From Chloroflexota bacterium (GTDB taxonomy: Bacteria; Chloroflexota; FW602-bin22; JACPRP01), in the NCBI GenBank assembly GCA_016210495.1, contig JACQUC010000074.1, positions 1 through 16,086 on the forward strand: DNA of 16,086 nt, given 5' to 3'. The notes under the pieces are model-generated. The model did no database searches. It was not told the origin of the DNA and saw nothing but the letters and a program-made list of their open reading frames with translations. Positions 584 to 16,037 of this stretch are shown in pieces. The translations under genes and the position numbers were made by a program. Positions within the stretch are counted from its first letter, which is position 1. Each line of letters opens with the position of its first letter.

Positions 584-2185
584 CTAGCGTACTCTCTTGC
601 GCATGCCGATGAGCTTCTCGCCGGTCTTGTAGTACTCGCCCCTTAGCGCCAACTCGGCCTCCTCGGCAAACTCGGGCTCCCAGTAGCCGAGCTCGTAGCC
701 GTGCCACGGCTTCTTCAGATTGAGCTTGGGCAACCCCTCGGCTTCCCACAACTCCAGTGCCCGCTCCATAAACTCCTTCTTCGGCAGCGACACCGGCGGA
801 TAGGCCCACTTGCGCGTTGCGTCGATGAGGATGGCCGATGTGCCATTGGGCGGAGGGAACGTGCTTTCCTCGTGCGTGAGTCCACCCATGGGCGCCGCCG
901 AGTGGTCGAGCATCGAGCCCTTGCCCATAGTGATGCGGGTGTCGCGATGTGGCTGCATGCGGAAGCTCAGCGCCCAGTTCACGGAATCGGGATCGCGGGG
1001 GTCGATGTCCTCGTCCACCGCGATCAGAATCTTGCCGATGGTGGGGTCCAGCGCCACGGCGGCGTTGAGCGCCTGCCACGGTTGGGCGGGATTCGTCTTC
1101 TTCATCTGGATGGCCAGGTACTCCCAGCTACCGCTCGACTCGTGGAAGCCCACGTTGAGGACCGACGGGATGTTGCAGTCGTACTTCAGGAACTTGTACA
1201 TAACCGACTCATAAGCGATCTGTCGGATCTTGCTGGACTCGCTGGGGGGAAACTGGCTAATGATGGCGTGGTAGATCGCATCCCGGCGGTGTGTGACGCA
1301 GGTGACGTTAAGGAATGGATTGAGCACACGGGAGCCCATGTAGCCGCAGTACTCGCCGAAGGGGGCCTCGGGCTCCAGGAACTCGGTGTCCATCTCACCC
1401 TCGACGACGATCTCGGCCTGGGCCGGCACCTCGATGTCGACGGTCTTACACTTGACGACCTCGAGCGGCTCGCCCATCAAGGCTCCGGCCACCGCAAGCT
1501 CGTCCATCCCGTACGGCAGCTTTGCCGTTGCAGTGTAGGCAACGCTTGGCGGACCGCCCATTACCAGGGCAGCCTGCAGCGGTTTTCCCCGCTCTCGGGC
1601 CCTGTCCCAGTGCATATAGATGTGCTGCGTGGGGCCGACGAAGATGCCCAGGCGACGCTTGCTCTTGACCTGGGAGCGGTAGTTCCCAACGTTGCGGATG
1701 CCGGTATCCGGATCCCTGGTGGTCCAGTGCGTGGCCGTGGTGTATGGCGCGTTGTCAAAGCCGGGGGTAGAAATAGGAACGGGTATCCTCTCGATGCCGT
1801 TGCCGTCCCGGTCCAGGTCGTCGCCCAAAACCACGACTTCCTGGCAAGGGCCGCTAGACACCGAGTTCGTCGGCAACGGGTTGCGCAGCGCCTCGGCCCA
1901 CTTCTCGTTCAACTCGTCGATCCTGCAACCCATGCCGAGCGCGTAGATGTCGCGGGAGCCGGCCACGATGGCCACGGCCACCGGCATATCGTACTTTCGT
2001 CCCTTCACGTCGACGACGTTTTCGAAGAGAAATGCCTTGCGCTCCGCTTCGGGCAGCCCACGAAACTGGAGGCGCACAAATGGCATCAGCTCCGTGTCCT
2101 TGTTGATCTGGCGCTTGATGCGCACCAGCTTGCCTCTCTCTTCGAGCAGCTTGAGGTGCTCTCTAATGTCCCTCAAATAAGCCAA
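584..2185 (-). CDS. UbiD family prenylated-FMN-dependent (de)carboxylase
   Basis: Member of the UbiD family, which adds or removes carboxyl groups on aromatic or unsaturated acids using prenylated FMN made by a UbiX partner (no ubiX is in the window). The 533-residue length is typical. The catalytic triad of the family is visible: Arg170 in NVGNYRSQ, Glu273 and Glu278 in EPEAPFGEYCGYMG, at nearly the spacing of fungal Fdc1 (Arg173, Glu277, Glu282). The frame is open to 2242, but the TTG at 2183-2185 is preferred: AAGGGGGG lies 8 nt upstream, the protein then opens with the usual LAYLRDIREHLKLLEERGKLVRI-type start, and a candidate promoter lies at 2218-2246. Stop TAG. The substrate is unknown; neighbours suggest aromatic or cyclic acid catabolism. 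Confidence 0.95.
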   Translation of the reverse strand: MAYLRDIREHLKLLEERGKLVRIKRQINKDTELMPFVRLQFRGLPEAERKAFLFENVVDVKGRKYDMPVAVAIVAGSRDIYALGMGCRIDELNEKWAEALRNPLPTNSVSSGPCQEVVVLGDDLDRDGNGIERIPVPISTPGFDNAPYTTATHWTTRDPDTGIRNVGNYRSQVKSKRRLGIFVGPTQHIYMHWDRARERGKPLQAALVMGGPPSVAYTATAKLPYGMDELAVAGALMGEPLEVVKCKTVDIEVPAQAEIVVEGEMDTEFLEPEAPFGEYCGYMGSRVLNPFLNVTCVTHRRDAIYHAIISQFPPSESSKIRQIAYESVMYKFLKYDCNIPSVLNVGFHESSGSWEYLAIQMKKTNPAQPWQALNAAVALDPTIGKILIAVDEDIDPRDPDSVNWALSFRMQPHRDTRITMGKGSMLDHSAAPMGGLTHEESTFPPPNGTSAILIDATRKWAYPPVSLPKKEFMERALELWEAEGLPKLNLKKPWHGYELGYWEPEFAEEAELALRGEYYKTGEKLIGMRKRVR

Positions 2186-2217
2186 GTAAACAACCCCCCT
2201 TCGTGTTTGTATGTGCA

Positions 2218-2246
2218 TTTCTATCACAAAGTCGGGCGACATGCAA
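2218..2246 (-). promoter_or_regulatory. Candidate sigma-70 promoter for ubiD-family gene
   Basis: Reading the minus strand: TTGCAT (2246-2241), 17-nt spacer, TAGAAA (2223-2218). Expected transcription start near 2211, about 25 nt before the TTG start codon. It supports a separate transcription unit for the UbiD gene and the shorter start. Confidence 0.4.
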
Positions 2247-2488
2247 CGGCGAAAGAAAGTGGTGGTGTACAGGGGATTGCAGAAACGGCGGCAGGTTACG
2301 GCGTCATCGGATGTGGCAACGGATAAACGGATGCGGCCTTACGCGCGTCCGGCGTCAAATCTGGCCACACACTTGATCTGGCAGGGTTTCCGCAGCCGTG
2401 CAGAGTGGCTTTACGTGCTTTTCGTATGCCACAACGCTGATCCGCCGGTCCGGTGCGTCCGTTGAGGCCGAGTTCGCCGCGCACGGAA

Positions 2489-2534
2489 TGTGCCCCGGCT
2501 CCGCATTGCGGAGCCGCTAGAAAACTGGCACATC
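2489..2534. repeat. Nested palindrome, possible transcript end
   Basis: Inner stem CGGCTCCGC (2496-2504), loop ATT, GCGGAGCCG (2508-2516), perfect over 9 bp. Outer arms ATGTGCC (2489-2495) and GGCACAT (2528-2534) are also complementary. It sits 25 bases downstream of the lipoprotein stop codon. There is no T-run, so it is at most an mRNA 3'-end stabiliser or atypical terminator. Confidence 0.6.
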
Positions 2535-2558
2535 CCTGGGGCGCGGAGGAGCCTACCG

Positions 2559-3101
2559 CTACGGGATGATGAAGTTGGCCTTGACGTTGACGGACTTTTC
2601 GGGCTCCACGGGGTCATTGGTTCGCATGACTATCGCGAAGTCGTGGGGCCCGTCCATACCCTCGTGCATAGTGAAGGCTAGACCGACCATGGATGACATA
2701 CCCGGCTGCACTGTCGTATCACGTACGACGGGATTGACCGGTCAACAGCCCTCGACGGCACGAACGATGGCCGAGCGGATCTCCAGCGGCTGGTCGCCGA
2801 CGTTCTTGAACTCGAAGCCGTACGCGACTACGTTGCCAACCGGGACCTTGCCGAAGTCCACAACTTGGTCATTGAAGGCGATGCGCGGCCCGCCTGTTGG
2901 GCTGGGCTTGACCTCGGGTGCGGGGGCAATGGACACGGGTTTGGCCATTATGGGGGGAGTGGGCGTAGGAATGGGGCCGAAAGGCGCCTTTGCCGCCGGC
3001 TTGGGCGCAGCGGGCTTGCTGGCCGTCGAGCCGCCCGTGCAGCCGGCCAGAGCAATGAGTACACTAAGGGCCACCAATGTCAGCACGAACAGATTCTTCA
3101 A
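2559..3101 (-). CDS. DUF1573-like lipoprotein, probable selenoprotein (UGA at 2742-2744)
   Basis: Exported lipoprotein of 180 residues if the in-frame UGA is read as selenocysteine. Residues 1-21 form a signal peptide with lipobox L-A-G-C (Cys21 lipidated); 22-65 is an Ala/Pro/Lys linker; 66-180 is a DUF1573-like beta-sandwich (DFGKVPVG, FEFKNVGDQPLEI, then TNDPVEPEKSVNVKANF). UGA 2742-2744 follows Cys119, giving EGC-U-P where relatives, as I recall, carry a Cys or Cys-Cys at this spot. Downstream reading continues 60 codons, including TMHEGMDGPHDF, to TAG at 2559-2561. Without them the domain loses its second half. A hairpin 18 nt after the UGA fits a SECIS. Start TTG at 3099-3101 has GAGG upstream and lies 12 nt after the enoyl-CoA hydratase stop, so the two are probably co-transcribed. 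Alternatives: a truncated protein at UGA (119 residues), a disrupted gene, or an assembly error. Function unknown; a Cys-Sec pair suggests redox or metal chemistry outside the membrane. Confidence 0.8.
2713..2729 (-). promoter_or_regulatory. Candidate bacterial SECIS hairpin
   Basis: On the minus strand, GTCGTA (2729-2724), loop CGTGA (2723-2719), TACGAC (2718-2713): a perfect 6-bp stem. The apical loop starts 18 nt after UGA 2742-2744 and has G at its second position. Bacterial SECIS models place the loop about 16-37 nt from the UGA with a G in the first two loop bases, so this fits. CCGG at 2741-2738 and 2705-2702 could extend the structure to the UGA. Confidence 0.7.
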
Positions 3102-3113
3102 TTCAGTTGCGCC

Positions 3114-3905
3114 TCAATTCCCAATGAATTTCGGATGCCTCCTGGCCTGAAAGGCAAGAATACCTTCTCTAAAGTCGGCTGTAAGACTGCTATCCGCGAT
3201 GGCGTTTCGCTCGCGCTCCATCTGCGTCTCGAGATGGTCGCCGAGGCCTTCGTAGATCAGCGCCTTGGCTCTACCTATGGCCGCAAGCGGACCTTGCGCC
3301 AATTGGGCACCCACGGTGCGCACGCGCGACAGCAGGTCGGCTTCCGCCACAACCTCGTTCACGATGCCCATATTCAGCGCATCATCGGCGCTAAGCTCGC
3401 GGTTACTCCACGCCATTTCGACTACCCTCTTCACTCCGATGAGACGGGGCAAGAAGTAGGTCACGCCGCAATCCGGTGTCAGGCCGATTCCGGTGAAGGC
3501 CATTTTGAATCGGGCCTTGGCGGACGCAACCAGCAAATCACACGCCAGAGCCATCGCAAAGCCCGCGCCGGCAGCAACGCCGTTCACCGCGCCGATCACC
3601 GGCTTAGGCATGCGAATCAGCGTGGCGACGACGCCGTCAAGGTTAGTCGTTAGCTTGCGAAAGAACGTGGATGGGTCACTCTCCAACAGCTCGGCCATCG
3701 CCTTCACGTCGCCACCTGCGCTGAAAGCCTCGCCAGCCCCAGTGAGAACGAGCGCCTTGACATTCTGGTTGGAATAGCAGCGGACCACGGCGTCCAGGAA
3801 CTCCTCGCTCATTTGGAGCGTAAAAGCATTGAGGTGCGTCGGCCTGTTCAGGGTGAGGATGGCGATGCCACCGTCTTGCTGCAACAGGATAGTCTCATAC
3901 TCCAT
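3114..3905 (-). CDS. Enoyl-CoA hydratase/isomerase family protein, PaaG-like
   Basis: Crotonase-fold enzyme of 263 residues acting on acyl-CoA thioesters in the cytoplasm. The oxyanion-hole segments are clear: AFSAGGDVKAM (about 60-70) and GAVNGVAAGAGFAMALACD (about 105-123). The motif GIGLTPDCGVTYFLPR (139-154) carries Asp145 where classical hydratases have their second catalytic Glu, and the first Glu position is not conserved. That pattern resembles PaaG-type ring or double-bond isomerases more than simple hydratases. ATG at 3903-3905 is preceded by GGAGGT at 6 nt; the longer open frame to 4346 overlaps the cyclase gene and is not coding. Stop TGA. The lipoprotein gene begins 12 nt later. 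The exact reaction cannot be settled from sequence. Confidence 0.95.
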   Translation of the reverse strand: MEYETILLQQDGGIAILTLNRPTHLNAFTLQMSEEFLDAVVRCYSNQNVKALVLTGAGEAFSAGGDVKAMAELLESDPSTFFRKLTTNLDGVVATLIRMPKPVIGAVNGVAAGAGFAMALACDLLVASAKARFKMAFTGIGLTPDCGVTYFLPRLIGVKRVVEMAWSNRELSADDALNMGIVNEVVAEADLLSRVRTVGAQLAQGPLAAIGRAKALIYEGLGDHLETQMERERNAIADSSLTADFREGILAFQARRHPKFIGN

Positions 3906-3982
3906 TGTAGGACCTCCGGTAACCTTTGTCAGTTTGCCTAGCCCCACATACAGTTTACCACAATAGTCCCAAACACAACAGG

Positions 3983-4009
3983 GGGGCAGGCTTGTAAACC
4001 CGCCCCTAC
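3983..4009. repeat. Imperfect palindrome with CCCCTAC tail
   Basis: GGGGC (3983-3987) with GCCCC (4002-4006), extended inward by GG/CC across one mismatch, loop around CTTGTAAA, followed by TAC. It overlaps the 3' end of the cyclase gene and the 100-base gap before the crotonase gene. Member of the same palindrome family as 70-92 and 12791-12812. Confidence 0.55.
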
Positions 4010-4812
4010 ACGATAGCCAGGGGTCTGATGGGCGAAGCCGTGGCCCCCACGAAGCGCAGCGGCAGCGCCACGAACAAGAAGCTGTAAACCTTCTCTTTCG
4101 CCAGTTCCTCCAGGTTGAGATTCTCAATGATATGTATGCCCCGCTCGGCGAGGAGGAAACCGTGCACCTGGCCCTGCGTGGGCCAGAACTCAAAGGCCGC
4201 GTGGTCGCCGCCGACGATAGAAACGCCTGCGGCCGCGAGCCAGCGCGCTCCCTCCAGAGTCGGGCCAGGGACGCTACTGCCGACGCCGAGGAATACAGAT
4301 GGGTCATCCCAGAACTGCGCCCAGCCGGTGCGAACCAGCACAACATCGCCAGGGCGAAGATCGACGCCCTCAGCCCGCGCTACGGCCTCCAGGTCTTTGC
4401 TGGTTATGATGTAGTCCGGGTCCAAGGTCGACCTGTCTTTGAATCCCGCGACGTCCAATAGAACGGCTCGACGGAGGATGGGCTGCACCGTTTCTATTCC
4501 GTGGGCGGCCATGCCGCCGGGGCCCGTTTGGTGGGTCGCGACGTCGATGCCGCCGAAAAGACGGCCGTCCTTCGAGAAGTGCCCGATGGCGTCGATGTGG
4601 GTCGATGTGTGGAGGCTCATGAAGACCTGGTCGTTGGCCGAGCTGACGCCATCGGCATACATCCTGTCGCCGTGCCTCCTGTGGAGTGAGAAACAGAAGG
4701 GAGGATGGATGGGCAACACCGGCATACCATGCTTGAGCGGCTGTGAGAGATCGAAGACAGGACGTTCGCGGATCATCGCGAACAGGTTATCGAGACGAGG
4801 AGCGTCTTTCAA
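4006..4812 (-). CDS. Cyclase family protein (kynurenine formamidase-like metal hydrolase)
   Basis: Member of the cyclase/kynurenine-formamidase-like hydrolase superfamily (PF04199), 268 residues, cytoplasmic. The metal-binding signature is HTSTHIDAIGHF at 68-79 (His68, His72, Asp74, His78), matching the family pattern HxGTHxDxPxH except for Ser at the Gly position. DVVLVRTGWAQFW and VGGDHAAFEFWP are further conserved blocks. Family members hydrolyse amide or ring bonds (for example N-formylkynurenine, isatin) or act in ring closure, so a ring-opening hydrolase is possible here. Start TTG at 4810-4812 has AGAGGTG upstream, lying over the stop of the flavin oxidoreductase gene 3 nt away, which indicates translational coupling. 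Stop TAG. Substrate not predictable. Confidence 0.92.
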   Translation of the reverse strand: MKDAPRLDNLFAMIRERPVFDLSQPLKHGMPVLPIHPPFCFSLHRRHGDRMYADGVSSANDQVFMSLHTSTHIDAIGHFSKDGRLFGGIDVATHQTGPGGMAAHGIETVQPILRRAVLLDVAGFKDRSTLDPDYIITSKDLEAVARAEGVDLRPGDVVLVRTGWAQFWDDPSVFLGVGSSVPGPTLEGARWLAAAGVSIVGGDHAAFEFWPTQGQVHGFLLAERGIHIIENLNLEELAKEKVYSFLFVALPLRFVGATASPIRPLAIV

Positions 4813-4815
4813 ACG

Positions 4816-5955
4816 TCACCTCTTCAGCAGGAACGGCTCAGGCGCCTGGACCATACCTTTTGGCCACCTGATACAGACGGTTTTCTCGAACCGGTCGTTC
4901 AGCTCTGCGCAGTGGTCGCAGTAGGTGCAGCGCACGATCTCTTTGGCTCTGCCTTCCTTCGCCTTCTTAGGCCAGTCGGGATCGGTCAAGAGCGCCCTGG
5001 CCAGGCCGATAATGTCCGCCTGTTCTTTTTGGAGGATCTTCTCGGCAAGGTCTGGCGTGGGGATCTTCCCGGCCGTGATCACGGGGATCGTGTGCCCCGC
5101 CTCGCGCAGTGAGTTGCGTACGCCTTCGGCCAGATAGGCGTTCGCGGCATCGGGCATCCACGCCCTTGGCCAACAGCGCAGGCCGCTGTAACCGGTATAG
5201 GCCGACCACGGCTCGCCCGGGTTTGGCGGGAGCGCGTCGTCGTACTGGCCGCCACAGGATGTGCTGATGTAATCGATCCCGGCCTCGGCCAGCTTGCGCG
5301 CAATAACCGTCGAGTGCAACAGCGTGTTGCCGCCCACGACAAGATCATCGCCGTTGATCCGAGCGCCGAGGGTGAAGTCCTTGCCCAGGAGGTCCCTGGT
5401 CACATGATAGATTTCGAGCAACAGCCGTAAACGATTGTCGATGTTCCCGCCGTACTCATCCCGTCGCTTGTTCTTGCGCGAGAGGAACTGCGAGAGGGTC
5501 ATGCAGCTCTCGGCGTCCCACTCCAGGGAATCGAAGCCGGCCTCGCCGATGCGCAGCGCGGCGGTGCGGTGGTCTTCGACGAGCTGCTTTATGTCGTCGA
5601 GCGACAAATCCTCGACTTTCTGCCGCCAACCGCTCTTGGCGACCTTCAAGAAATGGCCGAGCTGGACGCCGATCTTGGTCGGGCCTTCGCGATGTACCGC
5701 GTCGACCCATCGCTTCAGGCCGGGCACGTAGTCGTCGCTGGAGGCTCTGATGTTGCGTGGGCTCTTGGACTTCTGGATGACGATGGCCTCGCTGATGATC
5801 CAGCCGACGCCGCCCCGCGCCTGGCGGGCGTACCGCTCGATGAGCTCGTCGGTCACGAAGCCTTCGTCGCTGGCGAGGTTGGTGACCAACGGGGTCGAGA
5901 CGATGCGGTTTTCGAGTTTCATTTTGCCGACGGTGATCGGCTCAAATAGCTTCAC
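4816..5955 (-). CDS. Old Yellow Enzyme family NADH:flavin oxidoreductase, short Fe-S form
   Basis: FMN TIM-barrel oxidoreductase of 379 residues, related to 2,4-dienoyl-CoA reductase and NADH:flavin oxidoreductases. Family blocks: KLFEPITVGKMKLENRIV (2-19), VQLGHF (97-102), AGFDSLEW (139-146), QFLSRKNKRRDEYGG (156-170), GLARALLTDPDWP (317-329). Cys343, Cys346, Cys349 and Cys361 resemble the 4Fe-4S ligands of dienoyl-CoA reductases. Two oddities: the usual substrate-binding H-x-x-H/N of the barrel is replaced by Asp147 and Ser150 (WDAES), and the protein ends soon after the cluster, with no C-terminal FAD/NAD(P) domain. The GTG start at 5953-5955 follows GGAG by 6 nt; the nearby ATG is out of frame and meets TGA at once. 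A promoter lies just upstream. Stop TGA, 3 nt before the cyclase gene. Confidence 0.93.
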   Translation of the reverse strand: MKLFEPITVGKMKLENRIVSTPLVTNLASDEGFVTDELIERYARQARGGVGWIISEAIVIQKSKSPRNIRASSDDYVPGLKRWVDAVHREGPTKIGVQLGHFLKVAKSGWRQKVEDLSLDDIKQLVEDHRTAALRIGEAGFDSLEWDAESCMTLSQFLSRKNKRRDEYGGNIDNRLRLLLEIYHVTRDLLGKDFTLGARINGDDLVVGGNTLLHSTVIARKLAEAGIDYISTSCGGQYDDALPPNPGEPWSAYTGYSGLRCWPRAWMPDAANAYLAEGVRNSLREAGHTIPVITAGKIPTPDLAEKILQKEQADIIGLARALLTDPDWPKKAKEGRAKEIVRCTYCDHCAELNDRFEKTVCIRWPKGMVQAPEPFLLKR

Positions 5956-5995
5956 TTCATGCTCCTTTGACTGTGTTGTGCAGACGACGTCTCTT

Positions 5996-6024
5996 AGTTT
6001 ATCACAGTGTGGAAAGGATGTGAA
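5996..6024 (-). promoter_or_regulatory. Sigma-70 promoter for the OYE-cyclase-crotonase-lipoprotein run
   Basis: Minus strand: TTCACA (6024-6019), exactly 17-nt spacer, TAAACT (6001-5996). Expected start near 5988, about 33 nt before the GTG of the flavin oxidoreductase. It lies in the 88-base gap after the kinase stop. Confidence 0.55.
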
Positions 6025-6043
6025 TGAGCTTTCTCCCAGCGTG

Positions 6044-7531
6044 CTATTCCAACACCTTGCTGCCGAATGCCCCAATGCGCAGCAAGCCGGCAGGACCGGT
6101 GGCCTCGTCGAAAGGAAGCGCGATCACCACGCGCGTGCCCTGGCCAGGGATGCTCTGTACCGTCAGCGTGCCGCCAACCGTCTGAGCTCTCTCCCGCATT
6201 GTTTGCAGACCAAAATGGCCGCCGTCGCCTAGCAAATAGGTCTCGGGCTCGAACCCACGGCCGTCGTCTCGCACGGTTATCTCGGCGATACGGCCGGCGG
6301 CTGTAAAGCTGATCGTTACCTTTTGCGCGTTGGCGTGTTTGCGTACGTTCGAGAGCGCCTCTTGAACGATGCGGATCGCCTGGATCTCCACGGACGCGGG
6401 AAGACTACCCGGCCAATCTTGCGCCACCTCAAGCGTGGCTTGCAGACCACTCTGCTCGCTGAAACGACGAACGTATTCACCCAAGGCAGGCACGAGACCG
6501 GGACTGCCATACTTGCTAACCCGCAGGCCAAGGATGACCTCACGCGCGTCGGAGTAGGCATCATCGGCGACCCTGGCCATCTCCTGCAAATCTACCCGCG
6601 CCGGTTCCACCTGGCCGGCGATGAGACGGCTCTCTACGCCACGGGCCATCATCTTGAGGTAGCCAAGCACCTGCGCGAGGCCATCGTGTACCTCACGTCC
6701 GATGCGCTCCCGTTCCTCCAACACGGCCGCATACTGCGCACGATAGCGCTCCTCGATGGCTCGATCCAGCCGGCCGCGCTGCTCCACATCGTAGATGCGA
6801 AGCACCAGCACGATCAGGTAAGCCAATACCATGGCCACCGACGTGCGGAACACCTGTACCGGCAGCCCCACCGCGTTCAGGAAGGATCCGTAGTTGAGGG
6901 CGCTGGCGGGAAAGAAGGGTGCGCGGGGGGTTACCAGCCCGCTCAACAGAGAAAACAGGGCAAAGGCGACCCCGATGCCGATGCAGACGGTGCTCAACTG
7001 CGGCACGCCCAGGTCCCGGAAGACCTTGCGGTGGCTGAACCAACCCCAGGCGGCAAGCATGCCTCCCGGCAGGCCCAGCATATAACGCGCCAGGCTGCTG
7101 GAGGTAGGTATCCAATCAGGCGACGCCAGCCAGCCCCACTGGGCAACGCCCCAGGATACTAGCGCCCAAAAAAGGAACAGCGGCACGGTGAGCCAGCGCA
7201 GCCACAGCCAACGAGGGTATGGCCGAGTCAGCAGGTCGATGGCAAACCAGAAAAGGAACAGGTAGGAGAATGCCGCGGCCGTCAGGTCGACCATTTCCAG
7301 GGAGAAGCTCTCGCCGAGCCTCAGCAATCCGGTACGCACCAGTATGAGCATCCGCACCCAATCCACAAGGCTGTGCAGAAATGCGAAAACTGCCAGCGCG
7401 GGCAGGGCGTGATTAAGGGATAGATCGGAGTCGACTCTCCACTCGAGGGCGATGGCCACGCCCATTATGAAGAAGGCCAATCCGTAGCCAAAATAGGAGA
7501 TCAGCAGGCTGTAATGGAACTCGAGAGCCAA
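6044..7531 (-). CDS. Membrane sensor histidine kinase, HisKA_3/NarL-type
   Basis: Inner-membrane kinase of 495 residues (521 if begun at the ATG 7607-7609). About seven hydrophobic helices fill the first 245 residues, with no large extracellular loop, so the signal is probably sensed within or near the membrane. Then EERERIGREVHDGLAQVLGYL is the dimerisation and phosphoacceptor helix (His282), EALSNVRKHA the N box (Asn395), DDGRGF the G1 box (422-427), GHFGLQTM the G2 region, and GQGT (463-466) closes the HATPase fold. Such kinases normally pair with a LuxR/NarL-type response regulator, absent here. Start choice: the ATG overlaps an extended -10 box (TGATATAAT), so transcripts would begin after it; TTG at 7529-7531 has GGGAGGCGAGG upstream. 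Stop TAG. The family is sure, the start less so. Confidence 0.95.
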   Translation of the reverse strand: MALEFHYSLLISYFGYGLAFFIMGVAIALEWRVDSDLSLNHALPALAVFAFLHSLVDWVRMLILVRTGLLRLGESFSLEMVDLTAAAFSYLFLFWFAIDLLTRPYPRWLWLRWLTVPLFLFWALVSWGVAQWGWLASPDWIPTSSSLARYMLGLPGGMLAAWGWFSHRKVFRDLGVPQLSTVCIGIGVAFALFSLLSGLVTPRAPFFPASALNYGSFLNAVGLPVQVFRTSVAMVLAYLIVLVLRIYDVEQRGRLDRAIEERYRAQYAAVLEERERIGREVHDGLAQVLGYLKMMARGVESRLIAGQVEPARVDLQEMARVADDAYSDAREVILGLRVSKYGSPGLVPALGEYVRRFSEQSGLQATLEVAQDWPGSLPASVEIQAIRIVQEALSNVRKHANAQKVTISFTAAGRIAEITVRDDGRGFEPETYLLGDGGHFGLQTMRERAQTVGGTLTVQSIPGQGTRVVIALPFDEATGPAGLLRIGAFGSKVLE

Positions 7532-10204: not shown

Positions 10205-11938
10205 TTAGCCGCGAATGATTCTTGGCAGCATAAGATGATGATGCGGGCAGAGGGATGTCGGGTTCTGGTAGGCGCAGTTGGCGAAGGCGACCATGTACTG
10301 CCGCATCGAACCAAAGGAGACTACCTCGTCGACAAAGCCCGTCGTGGCGCAGTAGGCGGGGCGAGACTTCTGATAGTACTCTTCGGCCAGGGCGTTCATG
10401 CGATCGATGATGGGTTGTAGCGGCCGGCCCGCCTCTTTTTCCTTGACCAGCCTCCTGGCGAAAGAGGCGACGGCGGCGGTTTCGCCGTGCATGACGTAGA
10501 TCTCGGTGGTCGGTGTTCCGAGTGTAAAGGCATTGTGGTTGTTGGCCGTCGGGCCGCCCATAATGTAGTGGGCAGCCGCAGTCCCCTTCCTGAGAACGAT
10601 CAGCATCATGGGGACGTCGGTCTGCTCGATGGAGTAGATCAACGACTGGCCGAGTCCGAGTAGCTCCGCCTTCTCGGCGTAGTCGCCGACGTCGATGCCC
10701 GAGGTGTCTTGGAACCAAACTATGGGCACGCGGTCTCGGCCGCATAGCGTCACGAACTCGTTCAGCTTGATGAGTCCCTGCCGGTAGAGCTTGCCTCCGA
10801 TGCCGGGATAGGGAGCGTAGTCCGGATATCCTTTTGGCAAGAAGCCCTGCCGGTTGCCGATGACGGCCACGAGTAGACCGTTTATCTTCACCAGGCCGGT
10901 ATAGACCTCCGGCCCGTAGTCGGGCCTGAACTCCATATGCTCGCTGTTGTCGGTGAGGCGAGCCAGAACCTCGTCGAAGCTGTAGGCCATCTTCTGGTTG
11001 AAGGGGACGAGATAGTCGATCTCGCTGGGATCGAAGCGGGGCTCCTTGGGCTCAGCGACGCGGAAGAACTTGGGGTCGTAGGCGGGCATAGCCTTCATCA
11101 GGTCTTTCAGCCCGTCCAGGACACCTTCCTCGGTCTCGTAGACGGCCTTGAAAAAGCCGGTGGCATCGTAGTGGATGCCGACGCGTCCGGGCGGAACCTC
11201 CTTGAAATTCTGGGTGGCGGTGATGATCGCCTCGGCCCCTTCCTCGTCAAAGAACCCCTTGGGACTCATGCCACTGACGATCCCGGCGCCGCCGACGGCG
11301 ATGTTGCAGTTCTTGTGGGCCAAAAGGTAGGTTGGGCTTACGCCCTGATAACCGCCACCAGCGGGGTTCGTGCCCCAGATGCCGGCGAGCACCGGAAGGC
11401 CCAGTTTCTCCAACTCTGCGTGCCTGAAGAAAGTGGTGCCACTGCCCCTTCGGTTGGCGTACACTTTCTCCTGTTCCGGCAGTTTCACGCCGCTGCAGTT
11501 GACCAACCAGACGACAGGAACGTGAAGTCGTTTGGCGAGATCGGTCACTCTCAAGATGTTGTCTGCCTGCCCGGCGATCCAGGCGCCCGCCATGACCTTG
11601 TTATCGAAGCCGATGACTACGGCCCATCTCCCACTTATCCTGCCCAGTCCGTCCACGACACCGGTGGTCCCCGATTCTTCATCCATCGGGTCGTAGAGGG
11701 TGTGCAAAGGGCACCAGGTGCCAGGATCGAGCAGGTATTCGAGCCGTTGGTGTACGGTCCACTCGCCGCGCTTGTTCAGGGTCTCGGCAGGCAAGCCGGC
11801 ATTCTTGACTTTGACTACCGCTTCGGCCAGCGCCTGTTCCACCTCCTTGATCTGCGTCACGTTCTCTTGCATCCGCTTCTTCAGGCCATCGGACAAGGGT
11901 TTGCCAAACTCGGTCATCTTCTCGAAGTATGGTCGCAT
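10205..11938 (-). CDS. gcdA: Glutaconyl-CoA decarboxylase alpha-type carboxyltransferase
   Basis: Carboxyltransferase of 577 residues, closely resembling the alpha subunit of glutaconyl-CoA decarboxylase of Acidaminococcus as I know it, along nearly the whole length. In that enzyme the alpha subunit moves the carboxyl group of glutaconyl-CoA to a biotin carrier, forming crotonyl-CoA, and membrane subunits couple release of CO2 to sodium export. Two crotonase-like halves are visible: GTNPAGGGY (189-197) and VGGAGIVSGM (215-224) in the first, IVWFQDTSGIDVG and RKGTAAAHYIMGGP (about 450-463) in the second. ATG at 11936-11938 follows GGAGGGAG by about 5 nt. Stop TAA. The biotin carrier and membrane subunits are not in the window, so an acyl-CoA carboxylase role in another context remains possible. 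It is transcribed from an extended -10 promoter. Confidence 0.93.
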   Translation of the reverse strand: MRPYFEKMTEFGKPLSDGLKKRMQENVTQIKEVEQALAEAVVKVKNAGLPAETLNKRGEWTVHQRLEYLLDPGTWCPLHTLYDPMDEESGTTGVVDGLGRISGRWAVVIGFDNKVMAGAWIAGQADNILRVTDLAKRLHVPVVWLVNCSGVKLPEQEKVYANRRGSGTTFFRHAELEKLGLPVLAGIWGTNPAGGGYQGVSPTYLLAHKNCNIAVGGAGIVSGMSPKGFFDEEGAEAIITATQNFKEVPPGRVGIHYDATGFFKAVYETEEGVLDGLKDLMKAMPAYDPKFFRVAEPKEPRFDPSEIDYLVPFNQKMAYSFDEVLARLTDNSEHMEFRPDYGPEVYTGLVKINGLLVAVIGNRQGFLPKGYPDYAPYPGIGGKLYRQGLIKLNEFVTLCGRDRVPIVWFQDTSGIDVGDYAEKAELLGLGQSLIYSIEQTDVPMMLIVLRKGTAAAHYIMGGPTANNHNAFTLGTPTTEIYVMHGETAAVASFARRLVKEKEAGRPLQPIIDRMNALAEEYYQKSRPAYCATTGFVDEVVSFGSMRQYMVAFANCAYQNPTSLCPHHHLMLPRIIRG

Positions 11939-15299: not shown

Positions 15300-15564
15300 A
15301 TTGACCGGCACGGCAACGGTGATCGGGGCCAAGGACGCCGGCATGCGCGCCGTCGCGGCCATCTACCATTACGTGCGGACCAGGATAGCGTCAAGAGGCT
15401 GGGTGCTCGGTCAGGTTTGCCCTCTGCTCCAGTTACGCAGTGTCGCCCTCGCGCTAGCTCCTATCAGCTTGTATTCGAGATCGATTATTCCCGGACTGTC
15501 ATCTGCACCTACGGCTTTCGCCGTAGGGGCGAGTGCGTTCTTGGATAACAGGATGGAAAGATGA
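15274..15564 (+). CDS. Doubtful small open frame upstream of NuoE-type gene
   Basis: Open frame of 96 residues, not matched to any family I know. For it: the stretch from about 15310 to 15385 has strongly G/C third positions, as real genes here do, and the stop TGA overlaps the next ATG as ATGA, a typical coupled arrangement. Against it: no ribosome-binding site before ATG 15274, the second half has ordinary composition, and a palindromic repeat (15508-15527) lies inside it. It could be a degraded gene fragment or simply leader RNA. Confidence 0.25.
   Translation: MMGSPLLETLTGTATVIGAKDAGMRAVAAIYHYVRTRIASRGWVLGQVCPLLQLRSVALALAPISLYSRSIIPGLSSAPTAFAVGASAFLDNRMER
15508..15527. repeat. Short palindrome CCTACGGC/GCCGTAGG
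   Basis: CCTACGGC (15508-15515), loop TTTC, GCCGTAGG (15520-15527). Followed by GGCGAG; it resembles the CCTAC-type palindromes elsewhere in the window in inverted orientation. Lies 34 bases before the NuoE-type start. Confidence 0.6.
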
Positions 15565-16037
15565 CTCATTTATTAAAGACCGCGGTTCCCGTCGACGATC
15601 CAGTGGATAGCTGCACGGACCAGCGTGGGGCCTTGATTCCGCTGCTCCAGCAGGTGCAGGAGAGGTTCGGCTACCTACCCAATTCCTCTATCGCGGAGGT
15701 TGCCCGCGTCCTGAGGATGTCACCCAGCGAAGTGTACGGTGTCGCCACCTTCTACGCCCAGTTTCGCTTTACTCCCCCAGGTGAGACGACGGCCAAGGTG
15801 TGCCAGGGTACCGCCTGCCACGTGCGGGGCGGCAAGAAGATCCTGGAAGAGCTGGAAAAAGTGCTGGGGGTCCAGGCCGGCGGAACCACCGAGGACCGCA
15901 AGTACTCCCTGGAGCGGATCGCATGCTTTGGGGCGTGCAGCCTGGCTCCGGTGGTAGTCGTCGGGAACGACGTCCACGGCCGCCTCACGCCGTCCAAGGT
16001 GAAGAAAATCCTGCCCGGATCGGGGGACGGCACCTAG
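15561..16037 (+). CDS. nuoE: NuoE/HndA-type [2Fe-2S] NADH dehydrogenase subunit
   Basis: Thioredoxin-like [2Fe-2S] ferredoxin subunit of 158 residues, the 24-kDa subunit family of complex I (NuoE), also found in NAD-reducing [FeFe]-hydrogenases and NAD-linked formate dehydrogenases (HndA, HydC). The helical N-terminal half is typical (LIPLLQQVQERFGYLPNSSIAEVARVLRMSPSEVYGVATFY). The cluster ligands are Cys81 and Cys86 (KVCQGTACHVRGG) and Cys122 and Cys126 (ACFGACSLAPVVVV), the expected CX4C and CX3C pair. Length is full. It would pass electrons between the NADH/FMN subunit (NuoF/HndC type, expected just downstream outside the window) and the rest of the complex. ATG 15561 overlaps the stop of the doubtful frame. 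Stop TAG. Preceded by an operator-bearing promoter, so expression is probably switched. The parent complex cannot be decided. Confidence 0.95.
   Translation: MTHLLKTAVPVDDPVDSCTDQRGALIPLLQQVQERFGYLPNSSIAEVARVLRMSPSEVYGVATFYAQFRFTPPGETTAKVCQGTACHVRGGKKILEELEKVLGVQAGGTTEDRKYSLERIACFGACSLAPVVVVGNDVHGRLTPSKVKKILPGSGDGT

Follow-up and report, generated by a model that had tools for sequence, protein, structure and literature searches.

Does the UGA triplet at positions 2742-2744 (minus strand) of this Chloroflexota contig end a short lipoprotein gene, or does it encode selenocysteine? The window, by which we mean the whole stretch of 16,086 nucleotides analyzed here, carries on its minus strand a reading frame that runs from a putative TTG start at 3101 to a TAG stop at 2559 and contains a single in-frame TGA, codon 120. 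Our re-reading of the frame agreed with an earlier note on this DNA: the UGA follows directly on Cys119 (codon at 2745-2747, minus strand), the frame then stays open for 60 codons before the TAG, and read-through would place a Cys-Sec-Pro motif at residues 119-121. Drawing on domain scores, homolog alignment, conservation of the TGA, the hairpin that follows it, and the Sec machinery of relatives, we consider it very probable (about 0.96) that UGA120 is read as selenocysteine and that the gene (2559-3101, minus strand) encodes a selenoprotein of 180 residues.

Predicted product of the UGA-containing gene

The N-terminus (3039-3101, minus strand) looks by eye like a signal peptide and ends in a lipobox-like LAGC (residues 18-21), whose Cys21 we take, following the lipobox rule, to be the probable lipid anchor. 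The product is probably exported and lipid-anchored, in keeping with the lipoprotein assignment made earlier. The DUF1573-like domain of that assignment was also recovered: the read-through protein exceeds the cut-offs of both PF22544 (HYDIN_VesB Ig; 46.8 bits versus 25.5, residues 72-175) and PF07610 (DUF1573; 37.3 bits versus 26.1, residues 74-175), and cutting the protein at UGA120 lowers these scores to 30.8 and 26.5 bits, respectively. The protein database entry for this product is the truncated form of 119 residues that the earlier note had foreseen; gene prediction cut the protein short here and probably did so for others. The enoyl-CoA hydratase gene, also on the minus strand, stops 12 bases before the start of the CU gene (named here for its adjacent Cys and Sec), a spacing and orientation suggesting that the two may be co-transcribed.

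Conservation of codon 120 among homologs

A protein search with the window's product returned 44 matches, one of them its own truncated entry. In the 44-row alignment of the 43 other matches and the read-through protein (U written as C), every row has G118 and C119, Cys occupies position 120 in 90% of rows or more, and conserved positions beyond it are P133-G134, M145-H146, G148-M149, H153, and D163. The earlier note had set out what a homolog search might give, either Cys aligned at residue 120 with conservation past the UGA or homologs that all end there; the former was obtained, with relatives aligning beyond codon 120. Since gene callers stop at UGA, Sec forms are probably under-represented in predicted-protein collections.

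Scanning genome contigs yielded 57 loci, 55 of which cover codon 120, with TGA in 39 and Cys in 16. G041, a Dehalococcoidia bacterium, is the genome of locus L002; of 393 genomes in its class, 42 contain matches to the CU protein. The loci of 30 of these were read and include further TGA members, the motif being CU/CC in 28 genomes, CGC in one, and U-S-U in one; matches in the remaining 12 genomes have E values of 6.8e-6 or weaker and lie outside the motif count. The genomes closest to the window, judged by its carboxyltransferase among 301 genomes of the same phylum, are G554 (89%) and G474 (88%), and all three CU copies from these two (L093, L094, and L099) have TGA at codon 120.

Phylogenetic analysis of 87 members (111 columns; 33 of 84 inner branches well supported) placed 70 Sec (TGA) and 17 Cys forms on one tree, with at least 7 changes between Sec and Cys, 4 of which are forced by well-supported branches. 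The window clusters with L093, L094, and L099, all of them Sec forms, with a support of 89/65 that lies below the tool's good-support mark. This distribution of TGA and Cys at a single codon, together with a hairpin tied to the TGA forms (see below), supports selenocysteine at residue 120, as the earlier note had claimed.

Two observations on the family stand apart from this question. The CU-family domains of L004 and L008 are joined by very short branches and are filed as Anaerolinea versus Thermoflexus, so that one label may be off. L073, L074, L076, and G041:C154 are tandem forms: just before the CU domain they have a further DUF1573-like domain, which lacks the Cys-Sec pair.

A SECIS-like hairpin downstream of the UGA

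Covariation and pair counts point to a SECIS-like hairpin at 2712-2730 (minus strand), corresponding to columns 15-33 counted from the UGA. The family helix pairs columns 15-21 with 27-33; in the window its outermost pair (column 15 with 33) is C-A, and six pairs (16-21 with 27-32) enclose the loop CGUGA. In 59 TGA sequences, from which the window was left out, 93.7% of helix cells are paired against 73.8% in shuffles, each of the seven helix pairs varies on either side, and covariation scores 0.631, above both the shuffles (0.259) and the slid helix (0.276 at most); further pair types in the same sequences (14 versus 14.3 in shuffles) show no excess. Much of the helix change falls on third codon positions. 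Where VVGSTT is encoded, the third positions of the first Val and the first Thr co-vary as C-G, T-A, and G-C, and the third position of the second Val changes with its partner; members encoding TIGSMV also retain the helix.

The pairing separates TGA from Cys loci. Both third-position pairs are present in 66/66 TGA loci versus 3/17 Cys loci (Fisher 2.6e-13, kinship ignored), at least five of the six core pairs in 66/66 versus 3/17, all six in 62/66 versus 2/17, and GU at loop positions 2-3 in 66/66 (window included) versus 4/17. The tree set gives a similar picture, with both third-position pairs in 70/70 Sec and 3/17 Cys forms, and the six core pairs plus the GU loop in 66/70 and 0/17. Only four independent Sec/Cys pairs lie on well-supported branches, too few for the hairpin link to reach kinship-free significance: in random pairings, Sec accompanies the third-position trait in 2.9 of 4 (median p 0.25) and the six-pair plus GU trait in 4.0 of 4 (median p 0.125), neither ever going the opposite way.

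With the window excluded from its construction, a covariance model matched the window at a single place, the codon 120 site (18.5 bits, E 0.014). It also matched Cys loci there: L001 reached 26.9 bits and L004 20.6 bits, both above the window. Part of its score for Cys loci comes from shared coding sequence, so the evidence we prefer is that of pair counts and of changes at third codon positions. L001 (8169-8218), itself a Cys form, retains pairing at 4 of 7 SECIS-like positions, possibly reflecting a recent Sec-to-Cys change.

Folded alone, the window hairpin is no more stable than shuffles (z -0.13), and no Rfam family or tRNA was matched in the window. Neither folding of the single sequence nor a generic hairpin screen counts as evidence here; the screen is passed by 31 of 369 TGA triplets in the window and failed by codon 120, because the upper stem alone amounts to -6.4 kcal/mol. 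The SECIS rules listed in PMC13188914 specify a loop of 3-9 nt, a stem of 4-16 bp, G in the first two loop positions, and 16-37 nt between UGA and loop; the window hairpin fits those rules, with the loop CGUGA, in which the G at position 2 precedes a U, a stem of 6 bp, and a spacing of 18 nt. The same source gives a minimum free energy of -7.5 kcal/mol or lower, in a passage that does not state the stretch meant; besides the value for the upper stem, the window yields -9.3 kcal/mol for the 39 nt after the UGA and -13.9 kcal/mol for 50 nt. In the proposed decoding step, SelB and Sec-tRNA would read UGA120, aided by the SECIS hairpin, with 18 nt between the codon and the hairpin loop. The conserved SECIS provides a detection model for the CU subfamily.

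Selenocysteine machinery in relatives

A first machinery test covered 40 of the 57 loci (29 TGA genomes and 11 Cys genomes), and selA or selB scored above the curated cut-off in 29/29 TGA genomes versus 6/11 Cys genomes (Fisher 7e-4). As six of the 11 Cys-only genomes possess selA or selB, having the machinery is no proof in itself. A second set comprised 54 genomes, of which 41 were TGA-bearing, including G060 (U-S-U type) and G041 (which also has a Cys copy); selA was above the cut-off in 35 of these 41, in 2/5 Cys-only genomes, and in 8/8 genomes of G554's order without the gene. Sec machinery is common in that order, and its presence there is no pointer to the CU gene on its own. The six TGA-bearing genomes in which selA was not above the cut-off are G474, G344, G096, G058, G047, and G048.

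With regard to the two nearest genomes, G474 has a tRNA-Sec match of 69.7 bits and neither selA nor selB above the cut-off, and G554 has both selA and selB, its best tRNA-Sec match (43.9 bits) falling under the Rfam gathering score of 47 bits. We rejected tRNA-Sec as a criterion: matches of 47-51 bits occur in three Cys genomes without selA or selB above the cut-off (G002, G033, and G034), and 5 of 14 control genomes also pass. Sec formate dehydrogenases are reported in Anaerolineales (PMC4959059).

Alternatives to selenocysteine at codon 120

Were UGA120 a true stop, the gene would encode a 119-residue lipoprotein and the remainder would be relic sequence. The truncated database entry agrees with such a stop, as does the use of UGA elsewhere in the window: among the 11 further ORFs inspected it ends three (those of enoyl-CoA hydratase, FMN oxidoreductase, and VanW) rather than the four genes counted by the earlier note. 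A relic is, however, difficult to reconcile with the conserved protein sequence after the UGA, the drop in domain scores upon truncation, the TGA that 70 of 87 members share at this codon, and the hairpin tied to the TGA forms, and we regard termination at codon 120 as very improbable. A sequencing error or a fresh mutation from TGC or TGT deserves hardly any weight: the window's product is one member sequence from one contig, but the same TGA is found in L093, L094, and L099 and in 66 further rows of the tree set. A code variant in which UGA is read as another residue, such as Trp or Gly, would explain the open frame and nothing further; Cys at residue 120 in homologs, the other window ORFs that end at UGA, and the presence of selA, selB, and tRNA-Sec in relatives all speak against it, and we consider its probability negligible.

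Gene neighborhood and a possible copper link

Taking residue 120 to be selenocysteine, we turned to the genes around it for hints of function. The neighborhood set comprised 68 loci with context of unequal length, window included; neighbors were clustered by BLAST and ten representatives were scanned, among them one from each cluster named here. A PCYCGC lipoprotein cluster lies near 32/68 loci, a CuA-type cupredoxin-cytochrome c fusion near 29/68, a NapH/NosR-like ferredoxin-type Fe-S membrane protein near 28/68, a second CuA-type cupredoxin near 18/68, and a heavy-metal P-type ATPase near 16/68. At least three of the first four clusters occur together at 19/68 loci and any of them at 47/68; none was found at 21/68, including the window and the near relatives L106 and L107. 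L113 is counted among these 21, yet has a PCYCGC gene missed by the clustering.

The pattern CxxxCxxxHxxM, which we take to mark CuA ligands in these neighbors, is present in 29/29 and 18/19 members of the two CuA-type cupredoxin clusters. In G041's class, PCYCGC proteins occur in 21/28 CU/CC genomes versus 13/365 others (p 2.5e-20, kinship ignored), and the two genes lie within 6 kb of each other in 14/28. At L013 (near 7120) and L017 (near 2732), the CU selenoprotein adjoins an OS_HP4-like PCYCGC neighbor whose UxIC stretch contains an in-frame TGA.

Among the 12 ORFs of the window itself, the CU gene has no copper-protein neighbors. Its surroundings (584-6075 and 10205-11938) hold a minus-strand row of UbiD, enoyl-CoA hydratase, cyclase, and FMN-oxidoreductase genes together with a carboxyltransferase, and resemble a degradation cluster with the selenoprotein gene inside it; a NuoE-like thioredoxin-type 2Fe-2S ferredoxin (PF01257) is located at 15561-16037, near the contig end. 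Comparison of the 12 window ORFs with eight stretches from relatives found no shared gene order, only the CU gene and the carboxyltransferase being matched, in separate stretches. A search of the 393 genomes of G041's class with the window carboxyltransferase at E 1e-150 gave no match.

From the shared neighborhood, the CuA ligand pattern, and the PCYCGC co-occurrence, we infer that the Cys-Sec pair may serve CuA-type copper sites. The gene would yield an exported, lipid-anchored DUF1573-type domain whose loop bears adjacent Cys119 and selenocysteine 120. This pair could form a thiol-selenol site in the periplasm, acting on partner cupredoxins either by maintaining their two CuA cysteines in the reduced state or by supplying those cysteines with Cu(I). 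The partners would be an operon-like set of the PCYCGC lipoprotein, the CuA-type cupredoxins, of which one is a cytochrome c fusion, and the NapH/NosR-like Fe-S membrane protein. We hold this role, in which a periplasmic Cys-Sec site reduces or copper-loads CuA-type cupredoxins, tentatively, at somewhat below even odds and by homology only, because the window is without these neighbors. A broader version, rather unlikely in our estimation, envisages a widespread unlisted subfamily whose vicinal Cys-Sec metallates or reduces the CuA centers of small periplasmic cupredoxins and would link selenium to CuA assembly, with a PCYCGC selenoprotein as partner in some genomes.

Other functions of the selenoprotein must be weighed against CuA maturation. 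Detoxification of mercury or another soft metal by the Cys-Sec pair is suggested by the CU motifs that PMC13188914 lists for SaoL, SaoC, HgcA, and MbdU and by the several transporter-type selenoproteins that it links to metal resistance, and the P-type ATPase cluster would be in line with such a role. However, 0/10 scanned neighbor representatives are mer-type enzymes, and the clear signatures among them belong to CuA-type cupredoxins and Fe-S carriers, so we think soft-metal detoxification quite unlikely. A copper-independent role in the periplasm, as a general reductase of thiol-disulfides or peroxides, would match the expectation, voiced in PMC13188914, that most uncharacterized selenoproteins are redox proteins, and one cluster, near 5 loci, has a scanned member that is redoxin/thioredoxin-like. 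We nonetheless lean away from a general reductase, given that the Pfam matches are Ig-like, not thioredoxin, and that the most frequent identified neighbors are copper and electron-transfer proteins. For the CuA role, the neighborhood leads to a direct, testable hypothesis on the part of selenium in copper-site assembly.

Comparison with known selenoproteins and related proteins

Sco/PCuAC-type proteins are CuA assembly factors; the CU protein shares with them only the proposed role, and no homology is claimed. A sequence search of the PDB gave one match (E 0.15), and 0/15 candidate stretches from viral contigs is a relative of the CU protein. The OS_HP4 proteins (CYCXC/PCYCGC; NF041379, PF13798) belong to a different family, which is a frequent neighbor of the CU gene, co-occurs with it, and in some copies carries an in-frame TGA. 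Adjacent CU motifs are listed in Table 1 of PMC13188914 for SaoC, SaoL (MerB-like), HgcA, MbdU, KCU-star, and CopZ form 2; these share the motif and differ in the domain models listed for them, which are not DUF1573.

Ordinary DUF1573 and HYDIN-VesB-like Ig domains (PF07610, PF22544) are closer, the window protein scoring above both cut-offs. They have CxC, in contrast to C-U or C-C here, mostly followed by Pro. In an alignment with them, C119 and residue 120 match the two cysteines of CxC, with Sec at the second.

The earlier note knew of no characterized selenoprotein of this kind, but a DUF1573 selenoprotein, OS_HP2, had already been published. It is described with pfam07610 and the motif UxC (PMC2398784) and is given the motif UGC in tables of PMC9312934 and PMC13188914; NCBIfam holds a model for it (NF041425, cut-off 100 bits). 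The review of 2026 (PMC13188914) covers 119 families and subfamilies and treats Sec position and motif as justifying a separate subfamily; its table gives CU for other families only and not for DUF1573. A CU DUF1573 subfamily appears in no title or abstract among the matches listed, a literature mostly outside subscription journals, and the word DUF1573 is absent from the main text of deep-Sep (PMC12013277).

Other motifs occur in DUF1573-like relatives. L086 (G060; 1486-1821, minus strand) has two in-frame TGA codons one apart (U-S-U), a motif nearer to OS_HP2 than to CU, and L100 (G561; 693-1040, plus strand) has C-T-U, G561 also possessing the CU copy L096.

The DUF1573 domains of OS_HP2 and of the window protein are homologous, and the same loop bears the Sec in both. 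NF041425 matches the window protein weakly over residues 78-176, at 30.1 bits against the 100 required for membership, and of ten relatives or domain segments, eight score 14.8-35.5 bits and two have no match. Compared through the model and the published motif, UGC has Sec first, whereas in the window Cys and Sec are adjacent with Sec second. By its sequence, the window protein very probably represents a distinct CU branch of DUF1573 selenoproteins, with an adjacent Cys-Sec pair, Sec second, and a score far below the NF041425 cut-off; this would be a further Sec subfamily, one whose motif the PMC13188914 table does not give for DUF1573. It is the CU form that we find unlisted, DUF1573 selenoproteins as such being already known.
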